18,549 nt of DNA, taken from Comamonas sp. (GTDB lineage Bacteria > Pseudomonadota > Gammaproteobacteria > Burkholderiales > Burkholderiaceae_C). The translations under genes and the position numbers were made by a program. Numbering within the stretch: position 1 is the stretch's first letter; each line of letters opens with the position of its first letter. The DNA lies in contig JAHAYB010000175.1 in the NCBI GenBank assembly GCA_018384835.1, positions 1 to 18,549 on the forward strand. Direction: 5' to 3'. Below the pieces are notes generated by a model that was not told the origin of the DNA, ran no database searches, and was given only the letters and a program-made list of their open reading frames with translations. Positions 7,844 to 16,725 of the stretch are shown here, piece after piece.

Positions 7844-8479
7844 TCAATGCAGCATAAGCGCACCGGGGTTTTTGCTCTTGCCTGCGCGTGCTGGTGGAGT
7901 GCATAGGCCGCACTCGTAGTATTTCGTGTTTTCGTACATTTCGCTGACGAACATGCCCTCGCACTTGGTGCATTTGGTGCGGGTGAGCATCTGCGCATCA
8001 ATGAACTTGACTAAGCGCCAGGCGCGGGTAAAGGAGAGTAGGCAATCGAGTTCCAGCACCTGCATTTGCTCGGTGTACAAGCGAAAGGCTTTGGTGAGGA
8101 TTTCAATCGGGTCGGCATCCACGCCTTTAGAGAGGTAGTCGTAGATGTTCAAAAACAGCGAGCTGTGGATGTTCTCTTGCCACGTCAGAAACCAGTCGGT
8201 GGAAAAAGGCAGTTGCCCCTTGGAGGGGGATTTACCCGCAATCTCTTTGTACAAGCGAATCAGGCGCTCGTAGGACAGGTTGGTTTCAGACTCTAGCACC
8301 TGCATCCGTGCGCCCATTTGGATGAGCATGGCGGCACGCTCAATTTGGCGGGACTCATCCAGCACACTTTTAGCGGCACTTTTCGCAGAACTTTTGGCGC
8401 TGCCCTTGGCGGGATTTTTAACGGCGCTTTTTGCAGGACTTGGGGCGGGGACGCTGGCGGGGGTGGCATGGGCTGGCAT
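7844..8479 (-). CDS. flhC: Flagellar master transcriptional activator FlhC, with basic N-terminal tail
   Basis: FlhC joins FlhD in a heterohexamer that activates class II flagellar promoters. The conserved core begins near residue 40 (DESRQIERAAMLIQMGARMQ) and continues with LESETNLSYERLIRLYKEI, KGQLPFSTDWFLTWQ and SFTRAWRLVKF. The four zinc ligands are Cys170, Cys173, Cys190 and Cys193 (CTKC and CGLC). At 211 residues it is longer than the 192 of Escherichia coli FlhC. The excess is an N-terminal segment of about 34 residues rich in Ala, Lys, Pro and Ser (PAKSAVKNPAKGSAKSSAKS). The start is supported by AGAGAGG just upstream on the coding strand. It lies 111 bp after flhD, probably in one operon. 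Confidence 0.93.
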   Translation of the reverse strand: MPAHATPASVPAPSPAKSAVKNPAKGSAKSSAKSAAKSVLDESRQIERAAMLIQMGARMQVLESETNLSYERLIRLYKEIAGKSPSKGQLPFSTDWFLTWQENIHSSLFLNIYDYLSKGVDADPIEILTKAFRLYTEQMQVLELDCLLSFTRAWRLVKFIDAQMLTRTKCTKCEGMFVSEMYENTKYYECGLCTPPARAGKSKNPGALMLH

Positions 8480-8590: not shown

Positions 8591-8920
8591 TTACAGCACC
8601 TCGCTGACGCGGCTGGCCATGACGATGTTGGCGTGCATGGTGTTGAGCGCGTTGTTGGTGTTTTTGACGCTGCTGTGGCTGCTCAGCAAGCTCCAGACCA
8701 ATTCATCATCAACACGGAAGCTGCACAGCAAGGTATTGCGCGATGCCAGCTTGAGCACTTGCCCTGCCGACAACGTGCCCAGCAGCTCACAAGCCTCTTC
8801 GCTCAAACCCAGGCGGAAGATAGCTTCGGCCTTGTCTTGGCGAATCAGGTTTTGCGCCAGCATCAAATAAGTCAAGTTGGCTTCGCGGATTTCTGCCAGT
8901 GTTTGTTCGTTGTTGCTCAT
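8591..8920 (-). CDS. flhD: Flagellar transcriptional regulator FlhD
   Basis: A 109-residue all-helical partner of FlhC. Conserved segments are EIREANLTYLMLAQNLIRQD, AIFRLGLSEEACELL and LASRNTLLCSFRVDDELVW, with length close to the family norm. The ribosome site AGGAAG on the coding strand lies a few bases before the ATG. It is the first gene of flhDC, the class I flagellar operon. The long upstream region (8921-9256) and a leader hairpin are the probable regulatory zone. Its identity is reinforced by flhC immediately downstream. Confidence 0.92.
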   Translation of the reverse strand: MSNNEQTLAEIREANLTYLMLAQNLIRQDKAEAIFRLGLSEEACELLGTLSAGQVLKLASRNTLLCSFRVDDELVWSLLSSHSSVKNTNNALNTMHANIVMASRVSEVL

Positions 8921-13604: not shown

Positions 13605-13731
13605 ACCCATAGCCGATAGTCTGTAGTTGCTCATAGCTCATAGCGCTGGCCTATTTAACACAGTGTAGGGCTTTATTTACCTGGGGTTTTTCAGGACTCA
13701 GCATTGCTTGTAGAACCGCTCCATAGTGCAG

Positions 13732-13754
13732 TATTATCTACCGACCAATCGGTA
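13732..13754 (+). promoter_or_regulatory. Putative promoter and 16-bp palindromic operator of the diiron gene
   Basis: A -10-like TATTAT (13732-13737) is followed at once by the perfect palindrome TACCGA-CCAA-TCGGTA (13739-13754), placing the palindrome over the expected transcription start. The -35 region is weak. Palindromes of the ACCGACC/TCGGT kind are common TetR-family operators. Binding here would block transcription, and a TetR gene lies at the end of this gene set. Which protein binds is inference. Confidence 0.6.
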
Positions 13755-13785
13755 AATTATGCTTTTTCACGAGGAGACATACAGC

Positions 13786-14808
13786 ATGAACAAGGAAAAA
13801 CTCGCGCAAACCATGGAGTTCCCGCCTGCCACCGAGCAGCCCAATATCTACCCCCTGTCTTGGCATCAACACACCAAGAAACTGGAAGAAATCTGGGACG
13901 CATCGCGCCGCGAGGTGTGGGACCCCAAGAAACTGCCCTGGGATACCTTCGACGTTGAAAAATACACTTGGGAAGAGCGCGAAGCCATCGCCTACTGGTG
14001 GACGCTGCTGTCGGTGTTTGACGCTTCTGCGCCACCCGTGTTTGCCGCTGCCCTCATCAAAACCTACGAAGCGCATGAAGAAGATGCCGTGCGCCGCTGC
14101 TTCTTCAGCGTCACCCAAGACGAGCAAAACCATGAGCAAATGTGCGGCATGGCCATCACCAAGTTCCTGGGGCACCCCGACCCCATCACTTACGAACCCA
14201 AAACCGAGCTGGGCAAGCGCCTGCAAAAGAACGCCAAATGGCTGTACTTCAACGGTGGGCGCTACTGGAATGGCTACAAAACCGCTGTGCCCAAGTACAG
14301 CTTGGCGGTGCTGTTCAGCTCCTTCCTGATGGGTGAGATTGCTGCTGCCACCATCTTCCACCAGATGGCAGCGGGCTGTACCGAGCCAGTGTTCAAGGAA
14401 GCCTTCCGCAACATCGGCAAGGACGAAGGCCGCCACATGGGCATTTGCCTGGCCTTGATGGAGCGCGACTACCCCAAAATTGCCGCCGAAGACCGCAGCC
14501 TGATTACCAAGCAAATTCGCGCTGGTTATCTGTTCCTATCGGCAGTGTTGTTTGAGCCACCCATGGACTTCTGGGATTTGCCCGAAGACTTCATCCAGAA
14601 CCAGCGCGATGGTGAGGCTATAGCGCGCGCCGCCGGTTTTGCTATCCCTGAGTACGAGGCCAAGAAAAACAACTGGCGCACCGCCATTCTGAACCTCAAA
14701 GGGGCGCTGGATAAGTACGACATCCCCTTCCCCGCCATCCCCGAAGTGGGCATTACGGGCGAGGAAGTCTCGGATGTGGATATGGACGACATCATCCCTG
14801 TGTTCTAA
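13786..14808 (+). CDS. Ferritin-like (R2-type) diiron protein, putative oxygenase or desaturase
   Basis: A 340-residue soluble protein with two carboxylate/histidine iron-binding helix pairs. The first contains DEQNHEQM (Glu113, His116). The second contains MGEIAAATIF (Glu184) and DEGRHM (Glu214, His217). The fourth carboxylate is less clear; Asp79 in VFDASAPP or Glu95 are candidates. The E-x2-H spacing matches class I ferritin-like diiron oxidases, and spacing and surrounding residues do not match the ribonucleotide reductase R2 radical site or AurF. The C-terminus is acidic (DVDMDDIIPVF). ATG 13786 has GAGGAG at 13771-13776; an earlier in-frame ATG at 13759 lies just past the operator. With the reductase downstream it probably activates oxygen on an organic substrate. 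I do not recognise the subfamily. Confidence 0.8.
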   Translation: MNKEKLAQTMEFPPATEQPNIYPLSWHQHTKKLEEIWDASRREVWDPKKLPWDTFDVEKYTWEEREAIAYWWTLLSVFDASAPPVFAAALIKTYEAHEEDAVRRCFFSVTQDEQNHEQMCGMAITKFLGHPDPITYEPKTELGKRLQKNAKWLYFNGGRYWNGYKTAVPKYSLAVLFSSFLMGEIAAATIFHQMAAGCTEPVFKEAFRNIGKDEGRHMGICLALMERDYPKIAAEDRSLITKQIRAGYLFLSAVLFEPPMDFWDLPEDFIQNQRDGEAIARAAGFAIPEYEAKKNNWRTAILNLKGALDKYDIPFPAIPEVGITGEEVSDVDMDDIIPVF

Positions 14809-14815
14809 GCCCTCA

Positions 14816-14854
14816 CCCCCGCTTGCTTCCCCATTGAGCAGAGGCAAGCGGGGG
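14816..14854 (+). repeat. Perfect 11-bp inverted repeat between diiron and reductase genes
   Basis: CCCCCGCTTGC (14816-14826) and GCAAGCGGGGG (14844-14854) can form a strong stem with a 17-nt loop, 7 nt after the diiron stop codon. No T-run follows. It could be a processing or stability hairpin giving different amounts of the two proteins, rather than a true terminator. Confidence 0.7.
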
Positions 14855-14904
14855 CTTGCAACACTGTTTTATCAGCCACTTTTCTCAAATAAAGAATTGC
14901 CACT

Positions 14905-15939
14905 ATGACAAGCAACATCAAGCTCTCCCCTTCCGGTCAAACCGTCATTTGCGAAAGTGGCCAAACCGTGCTGGAGGCGCTGGAGCGCTCAGGCTATGCC
15001 CTGCCCAATAACTGCCGCGCCGGTGCTTGTGGTGAGTGCAAGGTCAAAGTACTCGATGGCGAGTTTGACCAAGGCTTTGTGCTGGACATGGCTTTGTCAC
15101 AAGACGAGCGCGCCCAGGGCTATGGCTTGATGTGCATGGCCAAGCCCCTGACCGATACGCTGGAAATTGAATGGGGCACGGAAGATGCCAAGCCCCAGCT
15201 CTTTCCCGCCCGCGAGGGGCAATACGCCGTGCTGGTGGATCGCATTGCCCGCACACCGCGCATCACCGAATTTGTGCTGCGCCCCCTGAGTGAGCCTATG
15301 CGCTTTTGGCCGGGGCAGTATGTGCAACTGGGCGATACCAGCCAAGGCATACCGGTGCGCAGCTACTCGCTAGCCAGCGCCCCGCGCCCAGATGGAGAAA
15401 TCCGCCTGCAAGTCACTCGCGTGGATGCCGACGAGGCCGACAGCCCCGCAGGCCGCACCAGCCGCTGGCTGCACGATGAGGTAGAGCTGGGCGCAAACCT
15501 GCGCTTTTCCGGCCCACACGGCACATTTATTGGCGACCCCTCGGTGGATACGCCGGTGCTGTGCTTGGCGGCAGGCTCTGGCCTGGCACCGATTTTGTCG
15601 CTGGCAGAGGCGGCGTTGCGCCGAGGCTTTAAGCTGCCGGTCACGCTGATGTTCTCCGCCCGTGAGGCAGAGGATTTGTACGACATTGGCCTAATGCGTT
15701 ATTGGCAGGCGCGTTATCCCAAATTCCGCTATATGCCCACGCTTACCCGTGGACAGCAGGAAGGGGTATTGCAGGGACGCATTCCTGCTATTTTGGGGCA
15801 GCACTTTCCTGACCTGAGCGGCCACAGCGTGTTTGTGGCCGGCACGACCAGCTTTGTCGATGACTGCGTAGCTGCCGCCAAAGCCCTGGGTGCCAAGGAT
15901 GAGCTGATTCACACCGAAGGGTTTTTTGCCCAGAATTGA
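14905..15939 (+). CDS. 2Fe-2S ferredoxin/FAD/NAD(P)H oxidoreductase, likely electron donor of the diiron protein
   Basis: A 344-residue three-module flavoprotein of the BenC/MmoC/XylA layout. The N-terminal plant-type ferredoxin has Cys37, Cys42, Cys45 (NNCRAGACGECKV) and Cys77 (GLMCMA). The FAD domain has the RSYS flavin motif at residues 152-155. The pyridine-nucleotide domain begins LAAGSGLAPILSLAEA (about 221-236) and ends in VFVAGTTSFVDDC, where many homologues have CGPP. It would carry electrons from NAD(P)H through FAD and 2Fe-2S to an oxygenase. It lies 96 bp after the diiron gene on the same strand, with no other oxygenase near, which makes that gene its probable partner. The ribosome site is weak. 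Confidence 0.9.
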   Translation: MTSNIKLSPSGQTVICESGQTVLEALERSGYALPNNCRAGACGECKVKVLDGEFDQGFVLDMALSQDERAQGYGLMCMAKPLTDTLEIEWGTEDAKPQLFPAREGQYAVLVDRIARTPRITEFVLRPLSEPMRFWPGQYVQLGDTSQGIPVRSYSLASAPRPDGEIRLQVTRVDADEADSPAGRTSRWLHDEVELGANLRFSGPHGTFIGDPSVDTPVLCLAAGSGLAPILSLAEAALRRGFKLPVTLMFSAREAEDLYDIGLMRYWQARYPKFRYMPTLTRGQQEGVLQGRIPAILGQHFPDLSGHSVFVAGTTSFVDDCVAAAKALGAKDELIHTEGFFAQN

Positions 15940-16008
15940 GGCATCAACCACGCTGTATAACGCGCACTAAAGCGCACTTACGCGCATTCAAGCTGCGCAA
16001 TATATATA

Positions 16009-16038
16009 GGGGGTACTACCTAGTTTGGTAGTATCCCC
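16009..16038 (+). promoter_or_regulatory. 30-bp inverted repeat upstream of the TetR gene (operator or terminator)
   Basis: GGGGGTACTACC (16009-16020) and GGTAGTATCCCC (16027-16038) form an 11-of-12 inverted repeat around TAGTTT. A TATATA box (16001-16006) lies just before it, so binding here would suit autorepression. A T-rich run (CTATCTTTTTT, 16039-16048) follows, so the same element could terminate transcription from the reductase gene. Upstream, a 10-bp period repeat begins at 15962 (GCGCACTAAA, GCGCACTTAC, GCGCATTCAA). Confidence 0.6.
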
Positions 16039-16071
16039 TATCTTTTTTCCCCTGCTTGAAGGAGCACCGCC

Positions 16072-16725
16072 ATGGCCAGAGGGCGCGCCGCTAATTACGA
16101 AGAACAACACCAAGCCATCTTGCAGCAGGCCGCCGAACTGTTTGCCCTACAAGGCTACTGGGCGACCAGCATGAACCAGGTGGCCAAGGCTTGCGGCCTG
16201 TCCAAACCCGCGCTCTACCATTACTTTGTGGACAAGCACGATTTACTGGTGCAGATTGCCCAAGGCCATGTCAGCCGCCTGCAAAACCTGGTGGAGCAAG
16301 CTTTGCACACCCAGGCCAGTACAAGCACCAGCAGCGCTAAACCCGAGCAGGCCAGCACCGAGCAGCAAAAGGCGCTGGCTTTTTTGGAGGCGTTGATTCA
16401 AAGCTTTGTGCAGGAATACGCCCAGGCACGCTATGCCCACCGCGTGCTGGTGGAGGATGTGAAATTCATGCAGCCCCAAGCGCAAGCGCAAGTGCTGCAA
16501 GCCCAGCGCGATTTGGTTGATAGCTTTGCCCAAGCCTTGAGCAGCACTTGGCCGCAGTTGCAGCCACAAGGGCTGGCCAAGCCCACCACCATGCTGCTGT
16601 TTGGCATGTTGAACTGGCTATTCACCTGGTTCCAGCCGGAGGGGGATTTGTCCTATACGCAGATTGCGCACATGGTGTTGCAACTGCTGCAAGGCGGCGT
16701 ACCTGCGCTGGTGAGGCAGAACTAG
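16072..16725 (+). CDS. TetR/AcrR-family transcriptional regulator
   Basis: A 217-residue one-component repressor type. The N-terminal helix-turn-helix is clear: AELFALQGYWATSMNQVAKA then CGLSKPALYHYFVDKHDLL (residues about 21-58). The ligand domain includes a Ser/Thr/Gln-rich loop (about 83-103) and ends with TTMLLFGMLNWLFTWFQPEG, a style I associate with TetR proteins that sense acyl-CoA or aromatic-CoA compounds; this is a weak impression. AAGGAG at 16059-16064 supports ATG 16072. It is the last gene of the diiron-reductase group, 132 bp downstream with its own likely promoter. It probably controls that group and itself. Confidence 0.88.
   Translation: MARGRAANYEEQHQAILQQAAELFALQGYWATSMNQVAKACGLSKPALYHYFVDKHDLLVQIAQGHVSRLQNLVEQALHTQASTSTSSAKPEQASTEQQKALAFLEALIQSFVQEYAQARYAHRVLVEDVKFMQPQAQAQVLQAQRDLVDSFAQALSSTWPQLQPQGLAKPTTMLLFGMLNWLFTWFQPEGDLSYTQIAHMVLQLLQGGVPALVRQN

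Follow-up and report, generated by a model that had tools for sequence, protein, structure and literature searches.

The diiron protein and its reductase

Which reaction is carried out by a small soluble diiron protein that is encoded next to a reductase and a regulator, in a gene neighborhood otherwise unrelated to it? The question is raised by contig JAHAYB010000175.1 of Comamonas sp., analyzed over its whole 18,549 nucleotides (“the window,” to which all coordinates refer), in which a first-pass annotation had described three plus-strand genes as an inducible diiron oxygenase system. The three genes are present as described, and are flanked by genes for a ctpA-type protease, a moeB-type adenylyltransferase, and an inorganic pyrophosphatase (ppa), all unrelated to the trio. 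The evidence below suggests that the diiron protein and the reductase would constitute a two-component monooxygenase of aerobic phenylacetate catabolism, in which the diiron protein is quite probably a single-subunit oxygenase of the ribonucleotide reductase R2 fold that makes ring-1,2-epoxyphenylacetyl-coenzyme A (CoA), as a non-homologous stand-in for PaaABCE.

13786..14808, plus strand: diiron oxygenase of 340 amino acids (aa) with an R2-like fold, proposed phenylacetyl-CoA epoxidase
14905..15939, plus strand: NADH-type reductase of 344 aa with the domain order [2Fe-2S], flavin adenine dinucleotide (FAD), nicotinamide adenine dinucleotide (NAD), proposed electron donor of the diiron protein (Pfam domains; 80 of 80 loci)
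16072..16725, plus strand: TetR-family regulator, PaaR-like (TetR_N, TetR_C_24; 51-55% identity to the Comamonas-type TetR)

The open reading frame (ORF) of the diiron protein as computed begins at TTG/ATG 13759 and encodes 349 aa; translation more likely begins at ATG 13786 (340 aa), which is preceded by GAGGAGA at about 13771. The reductase contains Fer2, FAD_binding_6, and NAD_binding_1 domains, all above the Pfam cut-off, as expected of the ferredoxin-FAD-NAD reductase originally proposed. Its best NCBIfam similarity is to BenC (140.6 bits, below the cut-off of 430) and its best PDB match is 5ogx. The related loci are the best 80 of 157 confirmed, each from a separate genome record; all 80 have the reductase gene downstream of the diiron gene, and the two genes are a fixed pair. 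The neighborhood survey thus upheld the proposed combination of one oxygenase subunit with a dedicated reductase, and no effector gene was seen at the locus, again as proposed. The TetR gene, which had been taken as a third member, is not a constant neighbor: apart from the window, 10 of the related loci have TetR-like matches above 100 bits, and six Comamonas-type loci have the TetR gene behind paaABCDE. The first-pass annotation had named loss of adjacency in relatives as evidence against its proposal; this applies to the TetR gene but not to the reductase. The region between the diiron and reductase genes (14808-14905) has a predicted fold of -31.1 kcal/mol (z -2.82, 2 of 200 shuffles as stable), of which the following hairpin is a part.

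14816..14854, plus strand: stable hairpin in the intergenic RNA of the pair, where processing or attenuation may occur

An R2-like fold outside the characterized families

An alignment of 54 homologues shows no variation in either of the ExxH motifs first noticed in the 340-residue protein (E113-H116 and E214-H217), nor at D79 and E184. No Pfam or NCBIfam model matches the diiron protein above its cut-off, in keeping with its earlier placement outside characterized families, and the structure prediction and fold comparison that the first-pass annotation had recommended gave an AlphaFold model (predicted local distance difference test, pLDDT, 87.9; predicted template modeling score, pTM, 0.85) with the ferritin-like fold of R2-like oxidases. 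At E ≤ 0.001 there are 754 homologues, and the matches listed (120 of the 754) share 78-94% identity and, going by their source names, belong to diverse proteobacterial groups and a few others. The homologues are mostly unnamed in their sources, or called rubrerythrin or hypothetical protein, and judged by sequence the protein is strongly conserved for one that has mostly been left unnamed.

The fold is shared with the R2-like ligand-binding oxidase and ribonucleotide reductase R2, to which the diiron protein is 10-13% identical; unlike these, it has a partner reductase and belongs to the paa regulon. Four residues after the first His, the diiron protein has a Cys (Cys120) that is invariant in 54 of 54 homologues, whereas Escherichia coli R2 has at this position the radical-site Tyr, which some R2 classes lack. 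The acyl desaturase set DesB/DesC/DesT, which had been offered as the closest functional analogy, was rejected as the wrong enzyme kind and the wrong regulon: that desaturase is a membrane histidine-box enzyme, in contrast to the soluble R2-like helical bundle with ExxH motifs modeled here.

AurF, CmlI, and DnfA are likewise soluble single-subunit diiron oxygenases of similar length, and DnfA is reported to have a neighboring FNR-type reductase, DnfB, and a third histidine, His209, four positions ahead of the Glu in the second ExxH (PMC9478400). At the corresponding position of the diiron protein (210), 45 of 54 homologues have Ile and 9 have Val. The similarity to the Pfam AurF model is 20 bits, below the cut-off of 29.6, and some of the listed homologues carry PF11583 in precomputed annotation. 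A hydroxylamine or arylamine N-oxygenase of the DnfA, AurF, or CmlI kind was considered, given the reductase neighbor of DnfA, and was rejected on the third histidine, missing in 54 of 54 homologues, and on the regulon, which is that of paa.

With PaaABCE, the pair shares the proposed reaction, the position in the pathway, a diiron center with an NAD(P)H reductase, and local regulators. It differs in having one oxygenase subunit in place of PaaA, PaaC, and PaaB, and PF05138 (PaaA_PaaC) is not among the Pfam matches of the diiron protein at E ≤ 1, a search in which HMMER filters can drop weak matches. None of the 50 VIA-align rows listed is PaaA, PaaC, BoxB, or AurF, which carries no weight either way. 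The reductase of the pair has its [2Fe-2S] domain first, whereas in the PaaE of the Comamonas operon (L002) this domain is last in the sequence, and the pair therefore bears little resemblance to a cut-down PaaABCE.

The pair within the phenylacetate regulon

At least one paa-specific gene occurs in the stretch covered at 47 of the 80 loci, and a PaaR-type operator occurs at 20 more. Judged by these neighbors and operators, the pair is almost certainly part of the phenylacetate (paa) regulon, and the initial guess of an acyl-thioester or aromatic substrate fits an aromatic CoA thioester. The genes found over the 80 loci are PaaX (31), PaaK (23), PaaI (22), PaaG (18), PaaN (14), PaaA (13), PaaC (13), and PaaZ (5). 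Comamonas-type loci have the order paaK-diiron-reductase-paaABCDE-paaR-paaJ, and the ORFs of Comamonas denitrificans (L002) run paaN, then paaG-paaI-paaK-diiron-reductase-paaA-paaB-paaC-paaD-paaE-TetR-paaJ. A plasmid record of Vitreoscilla filiformis has annotated paaIKABCDE and paaZ beside the pair, with the diiron gene given as “hypothetical protein.” In the genome to which the window belongs, one contig encodes PaaC, PaaD, PaaE, and the end of PaaA, and a second encodes PaaG and PaaN.

Two palindromes in the window had been described as operator-like, one of which is a good operator candidate by its sequence while the other looks like a terminator.

13739..13754: candidate PaaR operator TACCGACCAATCGGTA, 32 bases 5' of ATG 13786 (0 of 200 shuffles)
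16006..16041, plus strand: terminator-like hairpin followed by CTTTTTT, not an operator (fold energy)

With ≤ 2 mismatches, TACCGACCNNTCGGTA matches the window only at 13739-13754, once per strand, and two matches occurred in 0 of 200 shuffles. The operator core ACCGACCAATCGGT agrees with the Burkholderia cenocepacia repeat ACCGACCGGTCGGT at 12 of 14 bases and differs at 2; the B. cenocepacia repeat is reported to be needed for negative control of the paaA promoter, and its mutation to relieve repression (PMC2770484). PaaR of B. cenocepacia is likewise a TetR repressor, although the window TetR follows the diiron-reductase pair rather than paaABCDE. The window regulator, with TetR_N and TetR_C_24 above the Pfam cut-off, is 51-55% identical to the TetR between paaE and paaJ of six Comamonas-type loci, and is predicted to bind the candidate operator at 13739-13754. 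The palindrome at 16006-16041 was rejected as an operator, as it folds into a 15-bp hairpin of -26.4 kcal/mol (z -4.64), a stability reached by 0 of 200 shuffles, with CTTTTTT after it. A terminator scan gave 6 terminator-like sites against a shuffle mean of 4.3, so the terminator class by itself is weak evidence and the fold energy stronger.

Among 79 upstream regions, which include the window (two loci are too short for the count), the PaaR repeat with ≤ 2 mismatches lies 5' of the diiron gene in 26, compared with 4 of 1494 control segments. Because 20 loci with the repeat have no paa gene nearby, the operator links the pair to phenylacetate even when it stands alone, as in the window. The supposed inducibility of the system is very likely. 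PaaX is found in 31 of the 52 loci without a PaaR-type repeat (here at ≤ 3 mismatches) and in 0 of the 27 with it. Upstream of the diiron gene, a TGATACA/TGTATCA element occurs in 27 of the 52 loci without the PaaR repeat (among them L012, L049, L052, and L071), compared with 1 of the 27 PaaR-type loci and 41 of 1944 controls. This element, possibly a PaaX site, was chosen after the sequences had been viewed and is a lead only. A whole-genome test of the operator with ACCGANNNNTCGGT was discarded, as the pattern is found at 3 places in the genome of the window, including the window itself, and is rarer than its reversed control (15).

Genomes with the pair but without PaaA and PaaC

The evidence that bears most directly on the reaction comes from genomes that carry the pair without the known epoxidase. 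PF05138 was searched in 50 pair-bearing genomes (that of the window and 49 from the genomes of the 80 loci, chosen for spread): 32 have strong matches, Azospirillum soli has a divergent one of 83 bits, and 17 have none at E ≤ 0.001. PaaG exceeds its curated cut-off in all 17 of these (19 of 19 tested, including the genome of the window and A. soli), PaaK is found in all 17, and PaaN or PaaZ was seen in 15. The remaining two are L011 and L054, where PaaN/PaaZ was not seen, L054 not having been looked at for it. The genes acting after the epoxide thus co-occur with the pair where PaaA and PaaC are missing, and in 9 of the 17 (L040, L041, L049, L052, L054, L058, L071, L074, and L076) the pair lies inside the paa cluster. 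Insolitispirillum peregrinum DSM 11589 has thiolase-paaK-paaI-paaH-paaG-paaN followed by diiron-reductase-paaX, with PaaG at 381 bits (cut-off 345) and PaaN at 898 (cut-off 579). NCBIfam backs the gene labels in the loci examined: thiolase and PaaI are over the cut-off in L052, where PaaK (620; cut-off 646) and PaaX (237; cut-off 265) are best matches just under it and PaaH is interrupted by the end of the locus; PaaG and PaaN are over the cut-off in L074, and PaaZ and PaaG in L076. The isolates among the 17 are Tepidiphilus margaritifer, T. succinatimandens, and I. peregrinum. Since these genomes keep the steps before and after the epoxide but lack the known enzyme, formation of the ring epoxide by the pair is the simplest reading.

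The pair could instead perform a non-essential upstream step, making phenylacetate or a precursor from an amine, aldehyde, or alkylbenzene, with an unseen epoxidase in the PaaA/C-negative genomes. The weak AurF-type N-oxygenase similarity would suit such a role, and a divergent third PaaA-like protein in other genomes implies that unseen types are possible. This is very unlikely, considering that the 17 genomes have no PF05138 match even at E ≤ 0.001, that Ile or Val replaces the third histidine of AurF, CmlI, and DnfA in every aligned homologue, and that the pair is placed in the lower pathway operon beside paaK, paaG, or paaN. Even less probable is a redundant function without ring chemistry, in which the pair would remove oxygen or peroxide or help to repair PaaABCE. 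Such a function would be in line with the several oxidases that use R2-like and rubrerythrin-like folds, and with the position of the pair beside paaABCDE in Comamonas-type loci; however, the pair is present where PaaABCE is absent, and a dedicated [2Fe-2S]-FAD-NAD reductase in every related locus fits a monooxygenase better.

Co-occurrence and evolution

In a tool-drawn sample of 298 Campylobacterales genomes, the diiron protein is found in exactly those 4 that have PaaN, and PaaA/C (threshold E ≤ 1e-8) in 0 (Fisher 3e-9, uncorrected for kinship). Of 149 genomes from an alphaproteobacterial order, 17 have PaaN and 7 the diiron protein, all 7 being PaaN-positive (Fisher 7e-8, uncorrected for kinship), while strong PaaA/C is found in 4, all PaaN-positive and one also with the pair. 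Of the 17 PaaN-positive genomes, 6 carry the pair alone, 3 carry PaaA/C alone, 1 carries both, and 7 carry a divergent PaaA-like gene, so that all 17 have one of three diiron oxygenases. Two other markers were set aside: PaaG does not serve as a stand-alone marker of a missing epoxidase, since 23 of the 33 PaaG-positive alphaproteobacteria have neither system, and the 17 listed matches to PaaZ (TIGR02278) in this order all cover the dehydrogenase part only.

The divergent PaaA-like gene lies inside the paa cluster in the 7 genomes, scores 53-72 bits to PaaA (PF05138 73 bits in the two tested), and may be regarded as a third candidate epoxidase. These single genes are as follows.

L085, 8517-9284: divergent single PaaA-like gene
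L091, 8386-9186: divergent single PaaA-like gene
L094, 7148-7873: divergent single PaaA-like gene
L097, 8847-9584: divergent single PaaA-like gene
L098, 9784-10512: divergent single PaaA-like gene
L099, 9843-10571: divergent single PaaA-like gene
L100, 9427-10206: divergent single PaaA-like gene

In L085, a flavodoxin gene is located divergently beside the PaaA-like gene. In Azospirillum soli (L109, 10863-11591), a PaaA-like gene adjoins PaaX and the diiron pair, and accordingly the PaaA-like and diiron types can occur side by side.

When the presence of PaaA/C (32 rows, against 17 without) is mapped onto a maximum-likelihood tree of 81 diiron proteins, it changes 9 times, with at least 7 changes forced by well-supported branches, which indicates that the diiron protein meets PaaA/C absence many times. 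Sister rows differ in this respect: L038 has PaaA/C and L041 lacks it, L035 has it and L059 lacks it, and L046 has it while the two rows labeled Tepidiphilus lack it. The record of L034 is titled Stygiobacter (Ignavibacteriota), but its diiron protein clusters with that of Magnetospirillum (100/99) and the genome fell within the alphaproteobacterial sample, which marks it as a mislabeled assembly. A bolder proposal, to which we give slightly less than an even chance, is that ring epoxidation was invented more than once, with the two-gene epoxidase replacing PaaABCE in several phyla and the PaaA-like protein replacing it elsewhere in the alphaproteobacteria.

Proposed mechanism and points against it

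As proposed, PaaK would make phenylacetyl-CoA, NADH would reduce the FAD of the reductase, and electrons would pass via the [2Fe-2S] cluster to the diiron center, for which D79, E113, H116, E184, E214, and H217 are the putative ligands. The diiron center would activate O2 and epoxidize the aromatic ring, and the product, ring-1,2-epoxyphenylacetyl-CoA, would pass to PaaG and then to PaaN or PaaZ. The PaaR-type TetR repressor, or PaaX in other lineages, would keep the genes off until phenylacetate is present.

Several observations weigh against this proposal. The computation establishes the fixed pairing, the place in the regulon, the fold, and the co-occurrence with post-epoxide genes where PaaA/C is missing, whereas catalysis, with its substrate and electron route, is inferred. 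No paa gene adjoins the trio in the window, and the paa contigs of the same genome have no PaaR-type repeat at one mismatch. In the stretch covered, 33 of the 80 loci have no paa gene, and 13 of these also lack the PaaR-type operator (of the 13, five carry the TGATACA-type element and several lie on short contigs). Strong PaaA/C is kept in 32 of the 50 pair genomes, including that of the window, where the pair would be redundant or doing something else. Metagenome assemblies make up 14 of the 17 PaaA/C-negative genomes. The co-occurrence counts are uncorrected for kinship; kin are not independent, and the four Campylobacterales carriers are likely one family, while four of the seven alphaproteobacterial diiron genomes look close to one another by score. 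PaaG is over its cut-off in 33 of the 149 alphaproteobacterial genomes, of which 23 lack both PaaA/C and the pair, and the PaaA-like protein was found in just 6 of these 23 (in PaaN-negative genomes this type was not sought below E 1e-30).

The retention of PaaABCDE in the 32 genomes also speaks for another alternative, itself unlikely: that within the same regulon the pair acts on a related aryl-acetyl-CoA or substituted phenylacetate, for example by hydroxylating a ring-substituted phenylacetyl-CoA, and that the PaaA/C-negative genomes use it for this purpose only. Homoprotocatechuate-type genes at the Vitreoscilla locus and homogentisate-pathway genes, read by eye, at the Azospirillum locus are consistent with this possibility, as is the sister clade from Variovorax described below. 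However, it leaves PaaG, PaaN/PaaZ, PaaH, and thiolase without an epoxide source in 17 genomes, and the exact match with PaaN across 298 Campylobacterales unexplained. The Variovorax sister pair (L083, 11995-14047) is about 50% identical (47-55%) and adjoins genes for a CoA ligase, a MaoC-type protein, an enoyl-CoA hydratase, a thiolase, a Liv-type transporter, and an indolepyruvate ferredoxin oxidoreductase. This sister pair may perform the same chemistry on another aryl-acetyl-CoA.

Other features of the window

The minus-strand genes at 7844-8479 and 8591-8920 encode what we take, from reading by eye, to be FlhC- and FlhD-like flagellar regulators. The FlhC-like protein appears to have an N-terminal extension rich in lysine, alanine, and serine, with repeated KSAxK-like units.

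Implications for phenylacetate degradation

Phenylacetyl-CoA is a hub of aromatic degradation, receiving phenylalanine, styrene, phenylethylamine, and other compounds, and its known aerobic entry requires a multi-subunit diiron epoxidase. Many carriers of the pair are microaerophiles or denitrifiers, and where both systems are kept, as in the organism of the window, the small one may serve at low oxygen; isoenzymes for different oxygen levels or for substituted substrates are possible. No enzyme of this kind is described in the literature searched, including the GapMind paper (PMC9007349), PMC9416434, and PMC7497051, with subscription papers and preprints outside the scope of the search. A 2026 survey of 6,536 genomes used PaaA and PaaC as genomic pathway markers, and its final filter retained PaaK contexts with PaaABCDE only, apart from a few “other configurations” (PMC13186573); the words “diiron” and “Arcobacter” do not occur in its main text. 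If the proposed function is correct, surveys that rely on PaaA and PaaC markers would miss a class of degraders. The pair would also represent a second solution to the epoxidation of a CoA-ester arene, suitable for comparison of mechanisms, and would offer arene oxide research a much smaller catalyst.

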